Assembly: GCA_028277745.1 (NCBI GenBank)
Contig: JANQFR010000067.1
Span: 1-64,000 of the forward strand
Direction of reading: 5' to 3'
Length of the DNA: 64,000 nucleotides
Source of the DNA: Phycisphaeraceae bacterium
GTDB taxonomy: Bacteria; Planctomycetota; Phycisphaerae; Phycisphaerales; Phycisphaeraceae
Positions 4,126 to 11,706 of the stretch are shown here, piece by piece. The position numbers were made by a program, and so were the translations under genes. The first letter of the stretch is position 1. Each line of letters begins with the position of its first letter. Under the pieces are notes generated by a model, which was not told the origin of the DNA, did no database searches, and saw only the letters and a program-made list of their open reading frames with translations.

Positions 4126-5187
4126 TCAATCCGATTTCGGACGCCGACATGCACAGGTGTGGCGTTTGACGAGGTTGGCGTTGAGGTACAACAGGTTGTC
4201 GGTCACGTCACGCGGCGGCTTGCCGGCGGCCAGATCGAAAGTCAGCCGGATGATCGCCCGCACCGCGGCCGGCCAATGCAGGTCGAACGTGGTGAGCGGC
4301 GGAGTCAGTTCGGCGGCTCGCGGCAGGTTGTCGAAACCGGTCACACTCACGTCCTGACCGACGCGCAAGCCCGCAGCACGCACCGCTTCGATCCCGCCGA
4401 TCGCCAACCAGTCCGAGGCATAGATGACTGCGGTGACGCCCCGGTCGCGCTTGAGTAAGCTGGCCGTGGCTTCCTCAGAGCCCTCGGCGTTGGTCTGCTG
4501 ACGGTCCAACTCGATGACCCAGTCGTGATCCATAGGCAGGTGAAACTCATTCATGGCTGAATGGTAACCCTGATAGATTGCATGGAAGTGCGGCGATTGG
4601 CGCGGTCCGGTCATCAACGCGATCCGCTCATGCCCCATTGCGGCGAGGTACTGCACCGCGGTTTCACCGGCCGACCGGCTGTCAGGCACAATCGAAACCT
4701 GATTCGGAAGGTCACTCTTGTGCTGGATGCTGATACAGGGCTTGTCCAACTCATGGATTTTCCGGCGGGTCGAATCCGGGAACTCGCCTAGCAGCACCGG
4801 GACGTTGGTGGACGCCGTGTCGAACTGTTGCTGCAGGTCGTTGTCATCGGTGTAGTCGATCACCGTGACGCCAAGGCCTTGGGCGGCGGCTTGCTGCTTG
4901 AGTGCTTTGATCAGTTCTGTGGCGTAAGGATTCACCTCGCCGTGAGGTCCGTAGTAAGGATTAAACAACAGGCCGATCTGGAACGCCGGATGGGCTTTGA
5001 GCTGCCGCGCCGCGGTGTTGGGAACATAACCAAGCCGGTTGGCGGCTTCGAGCACCTTGGCTCGCGTCTCGGCGTTAACGCCGTAGCGGTTGTTGAGCGA
5101 GCGTGAAACCGTGCCGATACTCAGGTTCAATGTCCTGGCCAGCTCACGGATGCCAACATTGCTGGATTTACTCTTTGTGATGCTCAT
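4126..5187 (-). CDS. LacI-family transcriptional regulator
   Basis: A 353-residue regulator with an N-terminal LacI helix-turn-helix at residues 12-31 (IRELARTLNLSIGTVSRSL), a hinge region ending PNTAARQLK near residue 64, and a periplasmic-binding-like sugar-sensing domain beginning FQIGLLFNPYYG. It is the last gene of the leftward operon; its ATG overlaps the GH16 stop by four bases. A perfect LacI-type palindrome at 9552-9563 in the operon promoter makes it the obvious candidate for an autoregulating repressor that also controls the divergent GH36 gene. The inducer is unknown, probably a mono- or oligosaccharide from the polysaccharide attacked by the GH16 enzyme. Confidence 0.92.
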   Translation of the reverse strand: MSITKSKSSNVGIRELARTLNLSIGTVSRSLNNRYGVNAETRAKVLEAANRLGYVPNTAARQLKAHPAFQIGLLFNPYYGPHGEVNPYATELIKALKQQAAAQGLGVTVIDYTDDNDLQQQFDTASTNVPVLLGEFPDSTRRKIHELDKPCISIQHKSDLPNQVSIVPDSRSAGETAVQYLAAMGHERIALMTGPRQSPHFHAIYQGYHSAMNEFHLPMDHDWVIELDRQQTNAEGSEEATASLLKRDRGVTAVIYASDWLAIGGIEAVRAAGLRVGQDVSVTGFDNLPRAAELTPPLTTFDLHWPAAVRAIIRLTFDLAAGKPPRDVTDNLLYLNANLVKRHTCACRRPKSD

Positions 5188-6803
5188 GGCGTATCCCCCG
5201 CGTCTGCATGATGATCGCGCGGCAACACACTCGGGTAGGAGACGCCGATCTTGAGATCATCGATCGAAGCGCTGCCGACGCCCCCACGACGCAAGCGGAC
5301 CGAATGGATATCCGAGGGCTTAGGCAAGTCATCCTTCTGATTGATGTGCCAGCCCTGGCTGAAACTTGTGTTGCCGTGACGGTCGACATTGCGGTAGAAG
5401 TAGGGTTCCTTAATGTCCTGGAGCGGCAGGGGCAAGGCGCTCAGGCTGACCGCCGGCTTGCCGCCCTGCCGGCTGGGCGTAACCCGGCCGACCAACAGGT
5501 AGTCTTTATTATCCTCGAAGAACGGATCGGTGTTTTCCGAGGCCGGGTAAGCTGTTGCGGTGCTGGCCTGTGTCTTGAAGCCGGCCAGAAGATGGTTCTC
5601 GTTGTCGATGCCGACGGAAAAGATACGGCCCCCGTTGGCGTCTTCGAAATCGAGGTGTATTTGTGCGCCGGCCTCTTTACGCACCGGCAAACTGAAAAAC
5701 CACGGATGATCGTTCTGGATCGGCATCACCTGGTCAAGCGCGACGGGTTTGCCGCCAGTGAGCGTCTCCGGAGCAACGCGTTGAACAGGTTTCGTGGTTA
5801 AAAGGCGCTTGGGTTTATACACGCGCAGGTAATCAACCGCCATCACATCGCCGTCAGCGTCGTCGGTCAGCGGTGACCACGAGCTACCCCACGGGATGTT
5901 GCTGAAGACAATATGCATCCGGTCGCCATTGTACCCGCCCAGGTAGGACCAGTCGTCTTGCCCAAAGTTGCCGTATGCGCGTTTCTCTTCGTTGTCATAC
6001 CAGTGATCAAATTTACCAACGCCGGTGCGCCATTGATGGGTATACCGTGGGTGGGTGTCGCCGCGCCAGACTTCCTGGCCATTCAGGTAGAAGATAAACT
6101 CGCTCTCACCGTACCATAAGCCCCAGATGTGATAGTCATCCCAGGTGTGAGGAATGACGAAACCCTGGGCGATATGGTTGTGTTTGCCGTTGTCCTGGAT
6201 GATGTAGCCGAAGGTTTTCCAGTCGTGCCACGCCATGTGCCCGTGCCCGGTGTTGTCGTCATGGCGGACGTCCTTGCGGGACTCGATGATGTCGATTTCG
6301 TATCGGTCCAGGTACGTGTGTCGAGGCTTGCCCACGCAAGCCAGCCAGAACGCGTTGTTGACGCCGGAAGCCTTGCCGGGCTTGAAGCGGGCTTCGATGT
6401 AGACATTGTTTTCGATAGGGCTGTGCGTATAGACGTATCCCGCGGTCCACTCCGAGATTTGGCCGTCGTGTTCTTTGCTTTCGCGTCGGACATGCAACAA
6501 CAAGTTTCCGTCTTTGACCTCCAGATTGTCGGGCCCGCGCAGCGTGTTGTGCTTCATCCCCAGTTGGCCGTATTCCAGCGATTTCCAGAGATTCTCGTCG
6601 AGCGCGGGCCCGTCGAATTCGTCGGAGAGGATCAACACCATCTCTTCACCCAATGGATCGGCCGCGGGCTGAGGAAGGGGTTGATCGGCGGATACAGGCT
6701 TGATGCCGCAGACGATGAACAACAGAGCCAGGCCACACCGCCAGAAGCATGGCGTGATCCATAGGCCTTGGCCGAAGCAACTACGTATGTGGTCATGGAG
6801 CAT
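5184..6803 (-). CDS. Secreted GH16 glycoside hydrolase with C-terminal sandwich module
   Basis: A 539-residue secreted enzyme. A hydrophobic signal segment covers about residues 21-38. The GH16 domain runs from LSDEFDGPALDENLW (residue 59) to about residue 330 and contains the catalytic signature EIDIIE with Glu169, Asp171 and Glu174. GH16 enzymes retain configuration and cut beta-1,3 or beta-1,4 glucans and galactans; agarase, porphyranase, carrageenase and laminarinase cannot be told apart by eye. The last 200 residues end in a pattern (LRRGGVGSASIDDLKIG) like that of the two concanavalin-like proteins upstream, so it may be a related carbohydrate-binding sandwich. It is fourth in the leftward operon and translationally coupled to lacI. 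Confidence 0.88.
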   Translation of the reverse strand: MLHDHIRSCFGQGLWITPCFWRCGLALLFIVCGIKPVSADQPLPQPAADPLGEEMVLILSDEFDGPALDENLWKSLEYGQLGMKHNTLRGPDNLEVKDGNLLLHVRRESKEHDGQISEWTAGYVYTHSPIENNVYIEARFKPGKASGVNNAFWLACVGKPRHTYLDRYEIDIIESRKDVRHDDNTGHGHMAWHDWKTFGYIIQDNGKHNHIAQGFVIPHTWDDYHIWGLWYGESEFIFYLNGQEVWRGDTHPRYTHQWRTGVGKFDHWYDNEEKRAYGNFGQDDWSYLGGYNGDRMHIVFSNIPWGSSWSPLTDDADGDVMAVDYLRVYKPKRLLTTKPVQRVAPETLTGGKPVALDQVMPIQNDHPWFFSLPVRKEAGAQIHLDFEDANGGRIFSVGIDNENHLLAGFKTQASTATAYPASENTDPFFEDNKDYLLVGRVTPSRQGGKPAVSLSALPLPLQDIKEPYFYRNVDRHGNTSFSQGWHINQKDDLPKPSDIHSVRLRRGGVGSASIDDLKIGVSYPSVLPRDHHADAGDTP

Positions 6804-6856
6804 AAGGCAGTTTTATGGGGCAGGGGTGTTGGGTTGTTTCGATACCGTCAGGCGGA

Positions 6857-7636
6857 TTACGGCAGCAAATCGCCGTACCAGAAAATTCGTGATTCAGAGC
6901 TTTTGTACGAGCCGTCATTAATAATCGCCTGAAGCGATTCGTAATTCTCACTTTCGGCGTGTCCATCCAGATAGGCGTAATTAGCGCTGGCGCCATTGAC
7001 GTGCCGCGGATCGCCGTAGAAAGGAGACCCCTTGAGCAATCGACCTAGCGTCGAACGCCATTCGAGCCGTGAGTTATTGATGGTCGTTCCGTTCGGGACG
7101 CCATTGGTTGAGACATCGCCGAACAACACGGTCTCTGTTTGATCGACAATGGCATCAAACTTCTGATACTGACTGGCGGAGCCTGGGATGGAATCCCCGG
7201 CGACGGTATAGCCGGGCTGAAGACGGGGGTTGCACCCATAAGGGCGGGTGTCGGTGGCGATGGTCGGAGCTTCCGCCGCAGAGGGGCAGTTGAGGGCCGT
7301 CCCTTCCCATGGCGCAGCGTCGAAGACGTTGGACGAACCGCTGATGTTCGCGTTGAATTGAAGATGGTCGGCCAAGGCTTGCTGCCACCAGATCACAGTG
7401 CCAGATCCAGCCGGAGAGCGGGATCGGACAATAGCATTGTCGTAGTCGGCTGCATAGCTGTGAGCGCCTATGATCAGACTGCGGAGGTTGCTGGCGCACT
7501 TGATATTTCGTGCGGCTTCGCGTGCCGATCTCAGAGCCGGTAATAAGATCGACACCAGCAAGGCGATGATCGAAATGACGACAAGCAACTCGATCAGCGT
7601 GAAACCATGATCAGAAAAGGCGTGTTGGCGTTTCAT
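6857..7636 (-). CDS. Type II secretion-like pseudopilin (prepilin-type signal)
   Basis: A 259-residue protein with a class III prepilin leader. A short basic leader ends at Gly11, followed by [16 protein letters not shown], which is both the peptidase site and the transmembrane helix. The C-terminal part contains PRHVNG and YLDGHAE, the H-x-DG motif of the large planctomycete pseudopilin family. Such proteins are usually cleaved and methylated by a prepilin peptidase and sit in the inner membrane or a pseudopilus; many copies exist per planctomycete genome with unknown specific roles. Its place in a polysaccharide operon suggests a part in secretion or display of the GH16 or PEP-CTERM proteins. 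No prepilin peptidase is in the window. Confidence 0.9.
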
Positions 7637-7729
7637 GGGAAGAACCTCGATCCTTCAGGGGCCAGATTGATTCTTTCAGAAACAAAATAAAGAGCTGATG
7701 CGCAGGCTTTTGCCGGTACGCCTGAAGCC

Positions 7730-8563
7730 TTATCGCCGAAAACGCTTGAAAGAAAGCACCACGCCAATGCCGAACAGGCACAGGCTGCCCGGTTCGGGGA
7801 TCGGGAGACCGGTGACTTCTTCAAAGGCGTTCTCGTTATCGCTAAGCGTAATGAAGTCGATGTAAGAGTTGCCGCTGACGCCTGAAGCGCCGCCGACGGC
7901 CAAGCGGCTCAGGGACAACGAATTGACGTTGGTCGACGATGCGGACAACTGCGCCGAGGGCAGGGGCGAGGTCAGGTCGGGGTTGACCCAGGCATCAATC
8001 GTAAAGCCGGTGGAGCCATCGAACACCACGCGGAAAAGCACCAGCGAGTCGCCGCTGCTGAGCAACGCATCGGAAGCGACGACGTCGGCGCCGGCGCCCG
8101 CGTTAAAGATCAGATCAGTACCCGAGGCCATCAGGCGGGGACGGTCGGCGAGACTGGCGTTGCTTACAGGGTTGTTAAAGCCTAGGCCCGCGGTGCCGCC
8201 GCCGTTGGTGTTGACCAGGAAACTGCCCCAGACCGTGCCCGTGAGTGCGGCAGTCAGATCGACTCCGTTCTGCCGTTCAGCGCTGTTGTCAAGCACGATC
8301 GCTTGCGCAGCGATGCCGCTTTGCGTGAGCGCGAAGCCCGTGCTGACCGGTGCGGTGAGATCGCCCACGGCAGCGGTGACGTCCGGCACGCCGGAATTGG
8401 ATGACCAGTCGCCCGTCATGCCGGTCCCGGCAGCGGTCTGTCCCCTGAGCACACCGGTGTTGAGGTTGTTGAAATCCGTCTGGACCAAGGCGGCTTGCGC
8501 CACGCCAGTCCACGACACGGCTCCCAGGGCAAGGGTGATGACAGATCGTCTTAGAATCTGCAT
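7730..8563 (-). CDS. PEP-CTERM-anchored concanavalin-like surface protein
   Basis: A 277-residue exported protein with signal peptide (residues 1-24, ending VAQAA), a beta-rich concanavalin/LamG-like body, and a C-terminal PEP-CTERM sorting signal: the PEP triad, a hydrophobic helix, and a basic tail KRFRR. PEP-CTERM proteins are processed by exosortases and linked to exopolysaccharide or surface layers in other phyla. It shares a fold with the protein upstream (WGSFLV, AGLGFNNP, INPDL-like, AVGGASG). A carbohydrate-binding surface role fits the operon. Its start overlaps the upstream gene by 13 bases, so translation may be coupled. Confidence 0.88.
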   Translation of the reverse strand: MQILRRSVITLALGAVSWTGVAQAALVQTDFNNLNTGVLRGQTAAGTGMTGDWSSNSGVPDVTAAVGDLTAPVSTGFALTQSGIAAQAIVLDNSAERQNGVDLTAALTGTVWGSFLVNTNGGGTAGLGFNNPVSNASLADRPRLMASGTDLIFNAGAGADVVASDALLSSGDSLVLFRVVFDGSTGFTIDAWVNPDLTSPLPSAQLSASSTNVNSLSLSRLAVGGASGVSGNSYIDFITLSDNENAFEEVTGLPIPEPGSLCLFGIGVVLSFKRFRR

Positions 8564-9483
8564 GACAGGAGTCCTCCTTCAAAGATGAGAGTGCGATGGA
8601 ACAAGACAACTTGTTGCGTCAATGAACTCGAAACGGGGGACGCCCCAATGGGGGCTGCTACGGGCGAGATGGCTTTGGCGCCGGACAAGGGGGCGACGCC
8701 GGTCGGCTCTTCCAGTCCCGCAACAAATGGCTGACCCGTGACATCGGTAAAAGCGTCGGAGTCGCTGCTGATACGGATCGCGTCGAGTTGCCCGCCTCCC
8801 ATCCCGCCGACGGTGATGCGGTCAATGCTGCCGTTGCCGATGGTTGCAGAGAAAAGGTCAGGCTTGGGCAGCGGCGCGAGAAGATCGGGGTTAATCCACG
8901 CAGCAAACCCTTTATCCGGGCTTCTGGGGCTGTAAACGATCCGATAGAGGATCAGTGTTGGCTTGCCGGCCTGGATGGCCCCGGCGGCTCGTTTTTTGTC
9001 TTTTCCGCCGATCCGATAGACCAGATCGACCTTGTCAGAGTCGGCTTCAGCAATGATCGCCTGTGCGCTGAAAGTAGAGTGGGTTAACCCGGTGTTGAAT
9101 CCCAAGCCGGCTGCGCCTCCCGCGGGGACCTGAATGAGGAAAGTTCCCCACACCTCGTTCCGGAGACTGGAAGCGAGCGGGCGGTGGACCACCCGTCCCT
9201 CGGAGTGTGTCATTTTCAGCATGTGGCTTTTGCCGCCCTGCTCGAGGTTGTGGTTGATCGCAGCCGGCGCTCTCAGGTCACCGGGCACAACCCGGACCAT
9301 CGCGGTATCACCCGTCCAGGACGAGCCGGCTTCAAACCCTTCACCGCCGCTTTGATCTCGCAATTGACCGGTGCGGACATCGTTAAAGTCCGCGTGAACC
9401 GACTCCGCCAGCGAAATCTGAGTCCCGGTCAGTGTCAGGGTAATCGCGGTAACCAGAGCAGATAAAGACGTGCGATGGGGCAT
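8551..9483 (-). CDS. Secreted paralogue of the PEP-CTERM protein lacking the sorting signal
   Basis: The first gene of the leftward operon, 310 residues, with a signal peptide (residues 1-27). The body is clearly paralogous to the next gene: WGTFLIQ versus WGSFLVN, AGLGFNTG versus AGLGFNNP, AAWINPDLLAPLP versus DAWVNPDLTSPLP, and AFTDVTGQPF versus AFEEVTGLPI. After that point the downstream paralogue has PEP-CTERM, while this protein continues with an unrelated tail (EEPTGVAPLSGAKAISPV and onward) that runs into the start of the next gene. It is therefore probably a released, not anchored, carbohydrate-binding partner. The tail may be a frameshift or read-through product. The promoter is at 9544-9571. 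Confidence 0.8.
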   Translation of the reverse strand: MPHRTSLSALVTAITLTLTGTQISLAESVHADFNDVRTGQLRDQSGGEGFEAGSSWTGDTAMVRVVPGDLRAPAAINHNLEQGGKSHMLKMTHSEGRVVHRPLASSLRNEVWGTFLIQVPAGGAAGLGFNTGLTHSTFSAQAIIAEADSDKVDLVYRIGGKDKKRAAGAIQAGKPTLILYRIVYSPRSPDKGFAAWINPDLLAPLPKPDLFSATIGNGSIDRITVGGMGGGQLDAIRISSDSDAFTDVTGQPFVAGLEEPTGVAPLSGAKAISPVAAPIGASPVSSSLTQQVVLFHRTLIFEGGLLSCRF

Positions 9484-9543
9484 GAGTCGGTCTACCCATA
9501 TATGAATCAGAGCCTTGACGGCGGGATGGAAACCTTTACGATG

Positions 9544-9571
9544 ATTATATCGGAAACGTTTCCCATTGCAA
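9544..9571 (-). promoter_or_regulatory. Promoter of the leftward polysaccharide operon
   Basis: On the minus strand, TTGCAA (9566-9571) and a perfect TATAAT (9544-9549) are separated by 16 bases, a sigma-70-type arrangement. Transcription would start about 55 bases before the first gene's ATG at 9483. The spacer contains the LacI-type palindrome, so a bound repressor would cover the promoter core. Confidence 0.7.
9552..9563. promoter_or_regulatory. LacI-family operator
   Basis: GGAAACGTTTCC is a perfect 12-base palindrome with the central CG and AAACGTTT core typical of LacI/GalR-family operators. It lies exactly between the -35 and -10 of the leftward promoter and 80 bases upstream of the GH36 ATG, so it may serve both directions. 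The likely ligand is the LacI protein encoded at 4126-5187. Confidence 0.75.
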
Positions 9572-9642
9572 GAGGCCGGATTCTTGTTTTTGCCCGGCCA
9601 GTCATCCGGCCGATCCGCCGCCTACCCGTTCGTCAGAAAGCC

Positions 9643-11706
9643 ATGAAACACAAGACTTCTTCTCTCAGCACCCGCCAAACTGCCGCTACTAAGCCTTCAT
9701 ATGGCAACCAGCCGACCGAGGTTCTTGAACTGACTGGCCAAGACATGACTGATGGGGCCGGGCTTGTTAGCAAAATGTTTTCCGGAGCCCCGGATAAGCA
9801 GGGGGTGCTGATGCGGCTGCCGATGAAACTGCCCGACTTCGGTGAGGCGTGTTACTACGCCTGCTCACAAAAACACGACCCGCTGGGGCAGGCGAACGGC
9901 TACTGGCCCGGCGGCGCCAATCGGATGCAGGCGTTGCGCGTTGACGATTTCACCGACCTGACCCACGGCGGGTTACTGCTGCTGCTGCGACTGGCCGATG
10001 ACCGACACCTTGCGCTGGCGCCGGTCGCGGGGGAGATGGCCGTCGCGTATTTCACGAGTCACCAGCAAAGGCTGCACCTGGAAGTTTCGACCTGGGGAAC
10101 CGCCCCGATCGAGGGCAACCTGCCTCTGATCGCCTGGGGCGTTGGCCACAGCCCATGGGACGCGGTGCGGCGGGCATGGGGGCCGATCTTCCAACACGCT
10201 CAACTCGGCAAGGCGACCCAGCCCCGTTCAGCCAAGACTTACCCCGAGATGTTCACTTACCTGGGGTGGTGCACCTGGGAGCAATACAAGTCCGATATTC
10301 ACGAAACGATGCTGCTTGAAGCGTTGGAGCATATCGAGACGTCGGGCCTGCCGATCCGCTACGCCCTGTTCGATGACGGTCATTTGCACCACACCAAAGA
10401 TCGGCGGTTGTTGAGCCTGGAGACCAACGCCGAGAAGTTTCCCAACGGATGGGGCAACCTGCTGGCTCGGCGTGGCGAGAACCTGATGTGGTTCGGACTC
10501 TGGCTGAACTTCAACGGCTATTGGCGGGCCATCGCAGAGGCGAATCAGATGGGCGATCTCAATGATCACCTTGCTCCGATCCCACGCGGCGACTTGAAAC
10601 CGGCGGAAGGCTTCATCCATGCGTTTGCGTTCTATGACGCGATGATCGGCGCCGCCCAGGCCGCAGGGTTCGACTTTGTGAAGGTGGATGACCAAGCCCA
10701 GGGGCTACAGCAATACCAGGGTGTGGCCCGCCCGGTAAGGCAGGCGGCTGAGAACAGTCAGGCCCTTGAAGCGGCTTGTGCGCACCACGACCAGGGCCTG
10801 ATTAACTGCATGGCTCACAACAGCGTCTGTCTCTTCAACACACGGCATTCCGCGGTGACGCGCTGCAGCGAGGATTACAAGGTCAACGATCTCTGGCGAG
10901 CCAAAGCGCACCTGCACAACTCGTTCGCCAACATGCTCTGGTTCGGCCCGACGGTGTGGGGCGACCACGACATGTTTCACAGCAACGATCCGCTGGCCGG
11001 CCGCGCGATGGCGATCTCCAAGGCGATGAGCGGCGGGCCGATCTACGTCTCCGACGACCCGACGGACTTTGACCCCGCCAACATCTGGCCGCTTTGTCTT
11101 CAGGATGGCAAACTGCTGAGGCCTCTGGCTCCCGCGATGCCGCTTCCCGACAGCGTCTACCTCAATCCATTCAAGCAGGCGGAAGCGTACCGGACCGTGG
11201 CGCCGTTGCCGAATGAGGCCGCGGCGTTTGCGTTGTTCAACTTGACTCACCCCGAGGCGCCGGTGACCTGCGCCGTTGGGTTTGACGATTATGTTGCGGC
11301 AGCCGATCTGCTTGACGATGGTCAGGAATGGACAACGCCGGCCGAGGGCGTTTTGTTTTACGACTGGCATACCGCCGCGGTCCAGAGGCTGATGCCCGGC
11401 GAAGCGTCCGAGCCGATCGCGATGGAAGCTTTCGATTGCCGGCTGATCCTTGCCACCCCGATCCGACACGGCTGGTCGGTGATCGGTCGCCCCGACAAGT
11501 TTCTCTCTCCCGCCGCGGTGTCGGTGCGCTTCGTCTCGGCGGACGAGTTGATCCTCAACATGCCCGAATCAGCGCCAATCGTCATTTGGAGCGAAACCGC
11601 GTTCATCCATGATGGACAGGCTCCCATCACCTCGATCTCTACAAACCTGTGGCGGATCGACCTGCCCGACATGCCGAAGCCGGTCTCACTGCGTTTGTCC
11701 CGGTGA
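9643..11706 (+). CDS. GH36-like enzyme of the raffinose synthase/Sip1 family
   Basis: A 687-residue protein resembling the plant-type raffinose synthase/seed imbibition branch of GH36. Catalytic-site motifs are FVKVDDQ (Asp349, candidate nucleophile), RCSEDY (Asp411, candidate acid/base), WGDHDMFHS and SGGPIYVSD. Bacterial members are usually alpha-galactosidases; whether this one hydrolyses or transfers alpha-galactose cannot be read off. No signal peptide is apparent, so it is probably cytoplasmic and acts on imported oligosaccharides. The ATG at 9643 is chosen over an in-frame one at 9475, because the earlier start would put the LacI operator and divergent promoter inside the gene. It is transcribed divergently from the GH16 operon. 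Confidence 0.85.
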   Translation: MKHKTSSLSTRQTAATKPSYGNQPTEVLELTGQDMTDGAGLVSKMFSGAPDKQGVLMRLPMKLPDFGEACYYACSQKHDPLGQANGYWPGGANRMQALRVDDFTDLTHGGLLLLLRLADDRHLALAPVAGEMAVAYFTSHQQRLHLEVSTWGTAPIEGNLPLIAWGVGHSPWDAVRRAWGPIFQHAQLGKATQPRSAKTYPEMFTYLGWCTWEQYKSDIHETMLLEALEHIETSGLPIRYALFDDGHLHHTKDRRLLSLETNAEKFPNGWGNLLARRGENLMWFGLWLNFNGYWRAIAEANQMGDLNDHLAPIPRGDLKPAEGFIHAFAFYDAMIGAAQAAGFDFVKVDDQAQGLQQYQGVARPVRQAAENSQALEAACAHHDQGLINCMAHNSVCLFNTRHSAVTRCSEDYKVNDLWRAKAHLHNSFANMLWFGPTVWGDHDMFHSNDPLAGRAMAISKAMSGGPIYVSDDPTDFDPANIWPLCLQDGKLLRPLAPAMPLPDSVYLNPFKQAEAYRTVAPLPNEAAAFALFNLTHPEAPVTCAVGFDDYVAAADLLDDGQEWTTPAEGVLFYDWHTAAVQRLMPGEASEPIAMEAFDCRLILATPIRHGWSVIGRPDKFLSPAAVSVRFVSADELILNMPESAPIVIWSETAFIHDGQAPITSISTNLWRIDLPDMPKPVSLRLSR

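Follow-up and report, generated by a model that had tools for sequence, protein, structure and literature searches.

A predicted LacI-family repressor and its probable operator in the promoter spacer of a planctomycete gene run

The closest known scheme to the locus described here is that of the local, autoregulated LacI-family sugar repressors (Ravcheev et al. 2014, PMC4052901; Camas et al. 2010, PMC2978694). Local autoregulation by a repressor of this family is very common and is a textbook switch: 72% of the studied LacI-family factors are autoregulated, most family members are local, and their sites typically lie at a distance of 30-140 bp upstream, with a peak at 22 bp in the spacing of tandem sites (PMC4052901). 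A code for the recognition of these operators has also been published, in which R20 of the regulator goes with G at position 6 and L54 with a central CG, residue 55 being related to position 2 and residues 15/16 to positions 5/4, respectively (PMC2978694).

In the window, that is, the whole stretch of 64,000 nucleotides of Phycisphaeraceae DNA that was analysed, the minus strand from 9571 to 9544 is read directly from the sequence as 5'-TTGCAA-TGGGAAACGTTTCCGA-TATAAT-3'. The first-pass annotation had described a palindrome in a 16-base spacer between TTGCAA and a perfect TATAAT on this strand, and this description was exact. The -35-like hexamer TTGCAA (9566..9571, minus strand) matches the consensus at 4/6 positions and the -10 hexamer TATAAT (9544..9549, minus strand) at 6/6, and transcription would be expected to start near 9537. 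The 16-nt spacer is filled, except for 2 nt on either side, by GGAAACGTTTCC (9552..9563), an exact 12-bp palindrome with a CG centre that we propose as the main operator, O1. Its centre is located 74 bp upstream of the first ORF of a run of minus-strand genes. No other exact copy of the 12-mer exists in the window or elsewhere in the 5.12 Mb genome.

TTGCAA-16-TATAAT is a predicted sigma70-like promoter. It was the top of three matches in a scan of 8.3 kb, with 10/12 positions. Chance alone would give 2.6 matches at the 9/12 threshold, so that the match is not significant by itself. Sigma70-like matches at chance frequency in the region, together with the 116 sites found in the genome when up to two mismatches are allowed, would suit the view that this is a chance palindrome in promoter-like sequence with no regulatory role. 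We consider this hardly credible. The intergenic DNA examined around LacI genes, 76,393 bp in all, contains 16 perfect CG-centred 12-bp palindromes, and at that rate only about 0.03 are expected in the 159-bp intergenic region that holds O1; moreover, the palindrome, its spacing and the gene layout are conserved across genera. The operator arrangement is almost certainly real, judging from this conservation.

The gene that closes the run (4126..5187, minus strand) encodes a protein with an N-terminal LacI HTH (PF00356, 43.2 bits against a cut-off of 27, residues 13-57) followed by a periplasmic-binding-protein-like sensor domain (PF13377, 95.6 bits). The alignment reads LSIGTVSR ... AARQLK, with the TVSR helix (AA-17 to 20) and the hinge leucine (AA-54) in place. 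None of the cut-offs of the named LacI-type equivalogs (PurR, CcpA, RbsR, GalR, CytR) was reached, the best scores being 122 bits against 382 for RbsR and 119 against 501 for PurR.

Orthologs of this regulator were searched for in 400 genomes of the order, 51 of the family and 392 of the phylum, and also in GTDB contigs. The only ones found, with 46-50% identity, belong to three genomes of a single further genus; the wider searches of order and phylum gave no more of them. The locus L078 (Phycisphaerales bacterium UBA7800) was counted as that of G072, as matches and identities were equal. The stop codons that appeared within the ortholog matches are those at the C-terminal end, the 348-aa ORFs being intact. 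A C-x-C pair (C345, C347) at the C-terminus of the protein is invariant in the four orthologs.

All three orthologous clusters have the layout GH36 <- | -> prepilin-like gene - LacI, which is the divergent layout of the window, and in the intergenic region of each (3/3), upstream of the orthologous regulator, a perfect palindrome, GTAAACGTTTAC, is kept as the counterpart of O1. It is placed within a spacer of 16 bp that follows TAGACT or TGGACT, with 2 bp between it and a downstream TAAGAT -10 element, and this is the position that O1 has relative to its own -10. Over a 20-bp block the window and the orthologs match at 16/20 positions; in the three comparisons 3, 5 and 5 of 1000 dinucleotide shuffles scored at least as high. 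The three clusters are close to each other and belong to one genus, so this amounts to one independent cross-genus comparison.

Both palindromes, GGAAACGTTTCC here and GTAAACGTTTAC in the orthologs, are even, have a central CG and carry the G at position 6 that is expected for R20. NLSIGTVSR, L54 and K55 are identical in the DNA-binding domains of the window protein and its three orthologs; R20, L54 and K55 agree with the published code, and the corresponding G6, CG and A2 are bases kept in both genera. At half-site positions 6, 4, 3, 2 and 1 the two genera agree. Only position 5 differs, with G here and T in the other genus, although residues 15/16 (I, G) are identical, which is consistent with a loose reading of this position by the protein. 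The proposal that the co-encoded LacI protein regulates its own gene is supported by footprinting, the palindrome, its position relative to the -10, the divergent layout and the recognition helix all being kept in the three genomes.

The palindrome could also be a LacI-family operator that is bound, mainly or additionally, by another LacI paralog or by a global regulator. LacI-type HTH matches number 66 in the genome, 65 of them exceeding the Pfam cut-off, which is about twice the top lineage average given in PMC4052901 (32, Streptomycetaceae), and one paralog, L084, has I,G at positions 15/16 as well. Such binding is nevertheless improbable, because the LacI ortholog is co-located with the site in all four clusters, where it is the only regulator common to all, and the operator is unique in the genome.

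The first-pass annotation had suggested that a genome-wide search for the palindrome would define a regulon, and no second convincing target emerged. The two-genus pattern GNAAACGTTTNC has two copies in the genome, the second one inside an ORF. With up to two mismatches the sites exceed those of the reversed pattern (116 against 53), a control that differs from the operator pattern in CpG content. The sites with one mismatch lie mostly within ORFs or in terminator-like CCCCGGAAACGCTTCCGGGG hairpins, which, along with the placement of the second copy, makes the regulator look local and, together with the uniqueness of O1, argues against a global one. Two further candidates were rejected: GGAAACTTTTCC at C88:133666, intergenic and upstream of a sulfatase gene, is without the CG centre, and GGGAACGTTTCC, near a LacI gene on C45, is in coding DNA.

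In a systematic scan of the neighbourhoods of LacI genes, perfect CG-centred and GC-centred palindromes were found in similar numbers (16 and 18), and in the lack of an overall CG excess perfect 12-bp palindromes do not seem to be general near LacI genes in this genome. Some individual sites can be pointed out. GCAACCGGTTGC flanks another LacI gene (5966-7003) on both sides (L101, 5906 and 7094) and is likely to be an operator pair, GTTAGCGCTAAC is placed between two divergent LacI genes (L085, at 6574), and in genome G030 GAAAACGTTTTC was found upstream of other LacI-type genes (L142, L149), being likely operators of those paralogs. A prepilin-like gene is present within 5 kb in 32 of the 51 LacI genes examined (neighbourhoods L082-L139) and is directly adjacent in 12.

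Taking the evidence together, we estimate a probability of about 0.87 that the LacI-family repressor encoded at 4126-5187 has GGAAACGTTTCC as its operator, through which it would silence the run including its own gene and probably the divergent GH36 gene as well. In the absence of effector the repressor dimer would bind the palindrome within the -35/-10 spacer and shut out RNA polymerase. The run, with the lacI-type gene in it, would then be silenced, and probably GH36 too. Binding of an effector, which is presumably an oligosaccharide set free from the target glycan, would cause the dimer to leave the site.

The run is composed of five minus-strand genes. The first ORF (8551..9483) encodes 310 aa with no family and is a paralog (32% identity, E 1.7e-33) of the next gene (7730..8563), which encodes a PEP-CTERM secreted protein of 277 aa. 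These are followed by a gene for a prepilin-like DUF1559 protein (6857..7636), by one for a GH16-like secreted hydrolase (5184..6803) and by the LacI-family regulator with its recognition helix NLSIGTVSR, which closes the run as the first-pass annotation had claimed. The gaps between the five genes are, in order, -13, 93, 53 and -4 bp, and no terminator-like sites were found in them on the minus strand. The genes would be expected to share a single transcript, and the longer gaps, 7637-7729 (93 bp) and 6804-6856 (53 bp), could hold internal promoters. In the GH16-like protein an EIDIIE motif can be read from the sequence and the nearest solved relatives are porphyranase and laminarinase, all of these structural matches being weak; its score for kappa-carrageenase is 37 bits against a curated cut-off of 350.

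The run that had been described as a polysaccharide operon is in part lineage-specific: the prepilin-like and LacI genes are its only members common to the window and the orthologous clusters. In those clusters neither the GH16-like gene nor either of the secreted paralogs is present, and LacI is followed downstream by a sodium:solute symporter and a protein of about 1140 aa. By this comparison the conserved unit is composed of GH36, the operator, the prepilin-like gene and LacI. The suggested coupling of a secreted depolymerase with oligosaccharide processing is weaker for the same reason, and as far as the clusters indicate it is specific to the window's lineage.

The divergent gene, encoding a GH36 / raffinose synthase-Sip1-like protein, is placed at 9643..11706 on the plus strand. 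Its start is almost certainly 9643 and not 9475, because the N-termini of the orthologs align there and the operator would otherwise fall inside the ORF. O1 lies about 85 bp upstream of this inferred start codon, and both this distance and the 74 bp to the first ORF of the run are inside the 30-140 bp range of the family. An inverted repeat, GGCCGGAT...ATCCGGCC, is present at 9580-9615, between the operator and the GH36 start.

It had been proposed that one site may control both directions. The divergent layout and the distance of the site speak for it, but the promoter scan showed no convincing GH36 promoter in the window. Control of GH36 by O1 is likely, less firmly so than autoregulation. 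A tenable view, if the less probable one, is that the operator controls the minus-strand run only and GH36 uses an independent promoter nearer its start, which would be compatible with GGAAACGTTTCC being the operator of the run. No convincing GH36 promoter overlaps O1 in the window, where the possible promoter TTGACG-16-TACGAT (9515..9542, plus strand; 9/12) is at chance level. In the other genus the site and the GH36 start are well over 100 bp apart, and other promoter-like sites lie closer to the gene. Against this view, the divergent layout is kept in 4/4 clusters, and the other genus has a TTTACA-17-TAAAAA that points towards GH36 and shares sequence with the right half of the operator.

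A candidate weak second operator, O2 (GTAAAGGTTTCC, 9528..9539, minus strand), has one mismatch to the two-genus pattern. It lies 24 bp from O1, covers the expected transcription start, is overlapped by the possible GH36 promoter and may contribute to repression. We regard it only as a candidate, because it is not conserved in the orthologs, its spacing is off the 22-bp peak and it was noticed post hoc. More doubtful is the idea that two divergent promoters overlap here and contain O1 and O2, so that one repressor pair would switch both mutually exclusive directions. O1 would then be in the spacer of the minus-strand promoter and just downstream of the expected plus-strand start, and O2 the reverse.

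The locus thus offers a well-supported predicted repressor-operator pair in a planctomycete lineage. It also allows the LacI recognition code to be tested on a small scale, since the helix residues are the same while half-site position 5 is G in one genus and T in the other, and the host genome, with its many LacI-type HTH matches, is a rich set for studying how similar repressors avoid cross-talk.

PurR/CcpA-type operators are centred on AAACGTTT, and PurR has K after the hinge leucine and H at position 20. The site and the protein described here resemble this type in the AAACGTTT core and in the K after the hinge leucine. In contrast to PurR, position 20 is R, and residues 15/16 are I,G. The protein is no ortholog of PurR or CcpA, since its NCBIfam scores are far below the cut-offs of both.

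As for geometry, the engineered promoters Pspacer (PMC7804116), Ptrc1O-core and PA1lacO-1 (PMC3922697) have a lac operator between -35 and -10, as O1 here. Placed in the spacer, an operator is in direct competition with RNA polymerase, and repression is strong in these engineered lac promoters (PMC7804116, PMC3922697). PA1lacO-1 carries in addition another operator close to the start site, comparable to the candidate O2 (PMC3922697). Unlike these constructs, the sequence found here is natural, the putative O2 is weak and 24 bp away, and the protein is a different one. Compared with the local LacI-family repressors, the regulator is the last gene of the run, prepilin-like and PEP-CTERM genes are part of that run, and the clade and the presumed effector differ from those that have been studied.
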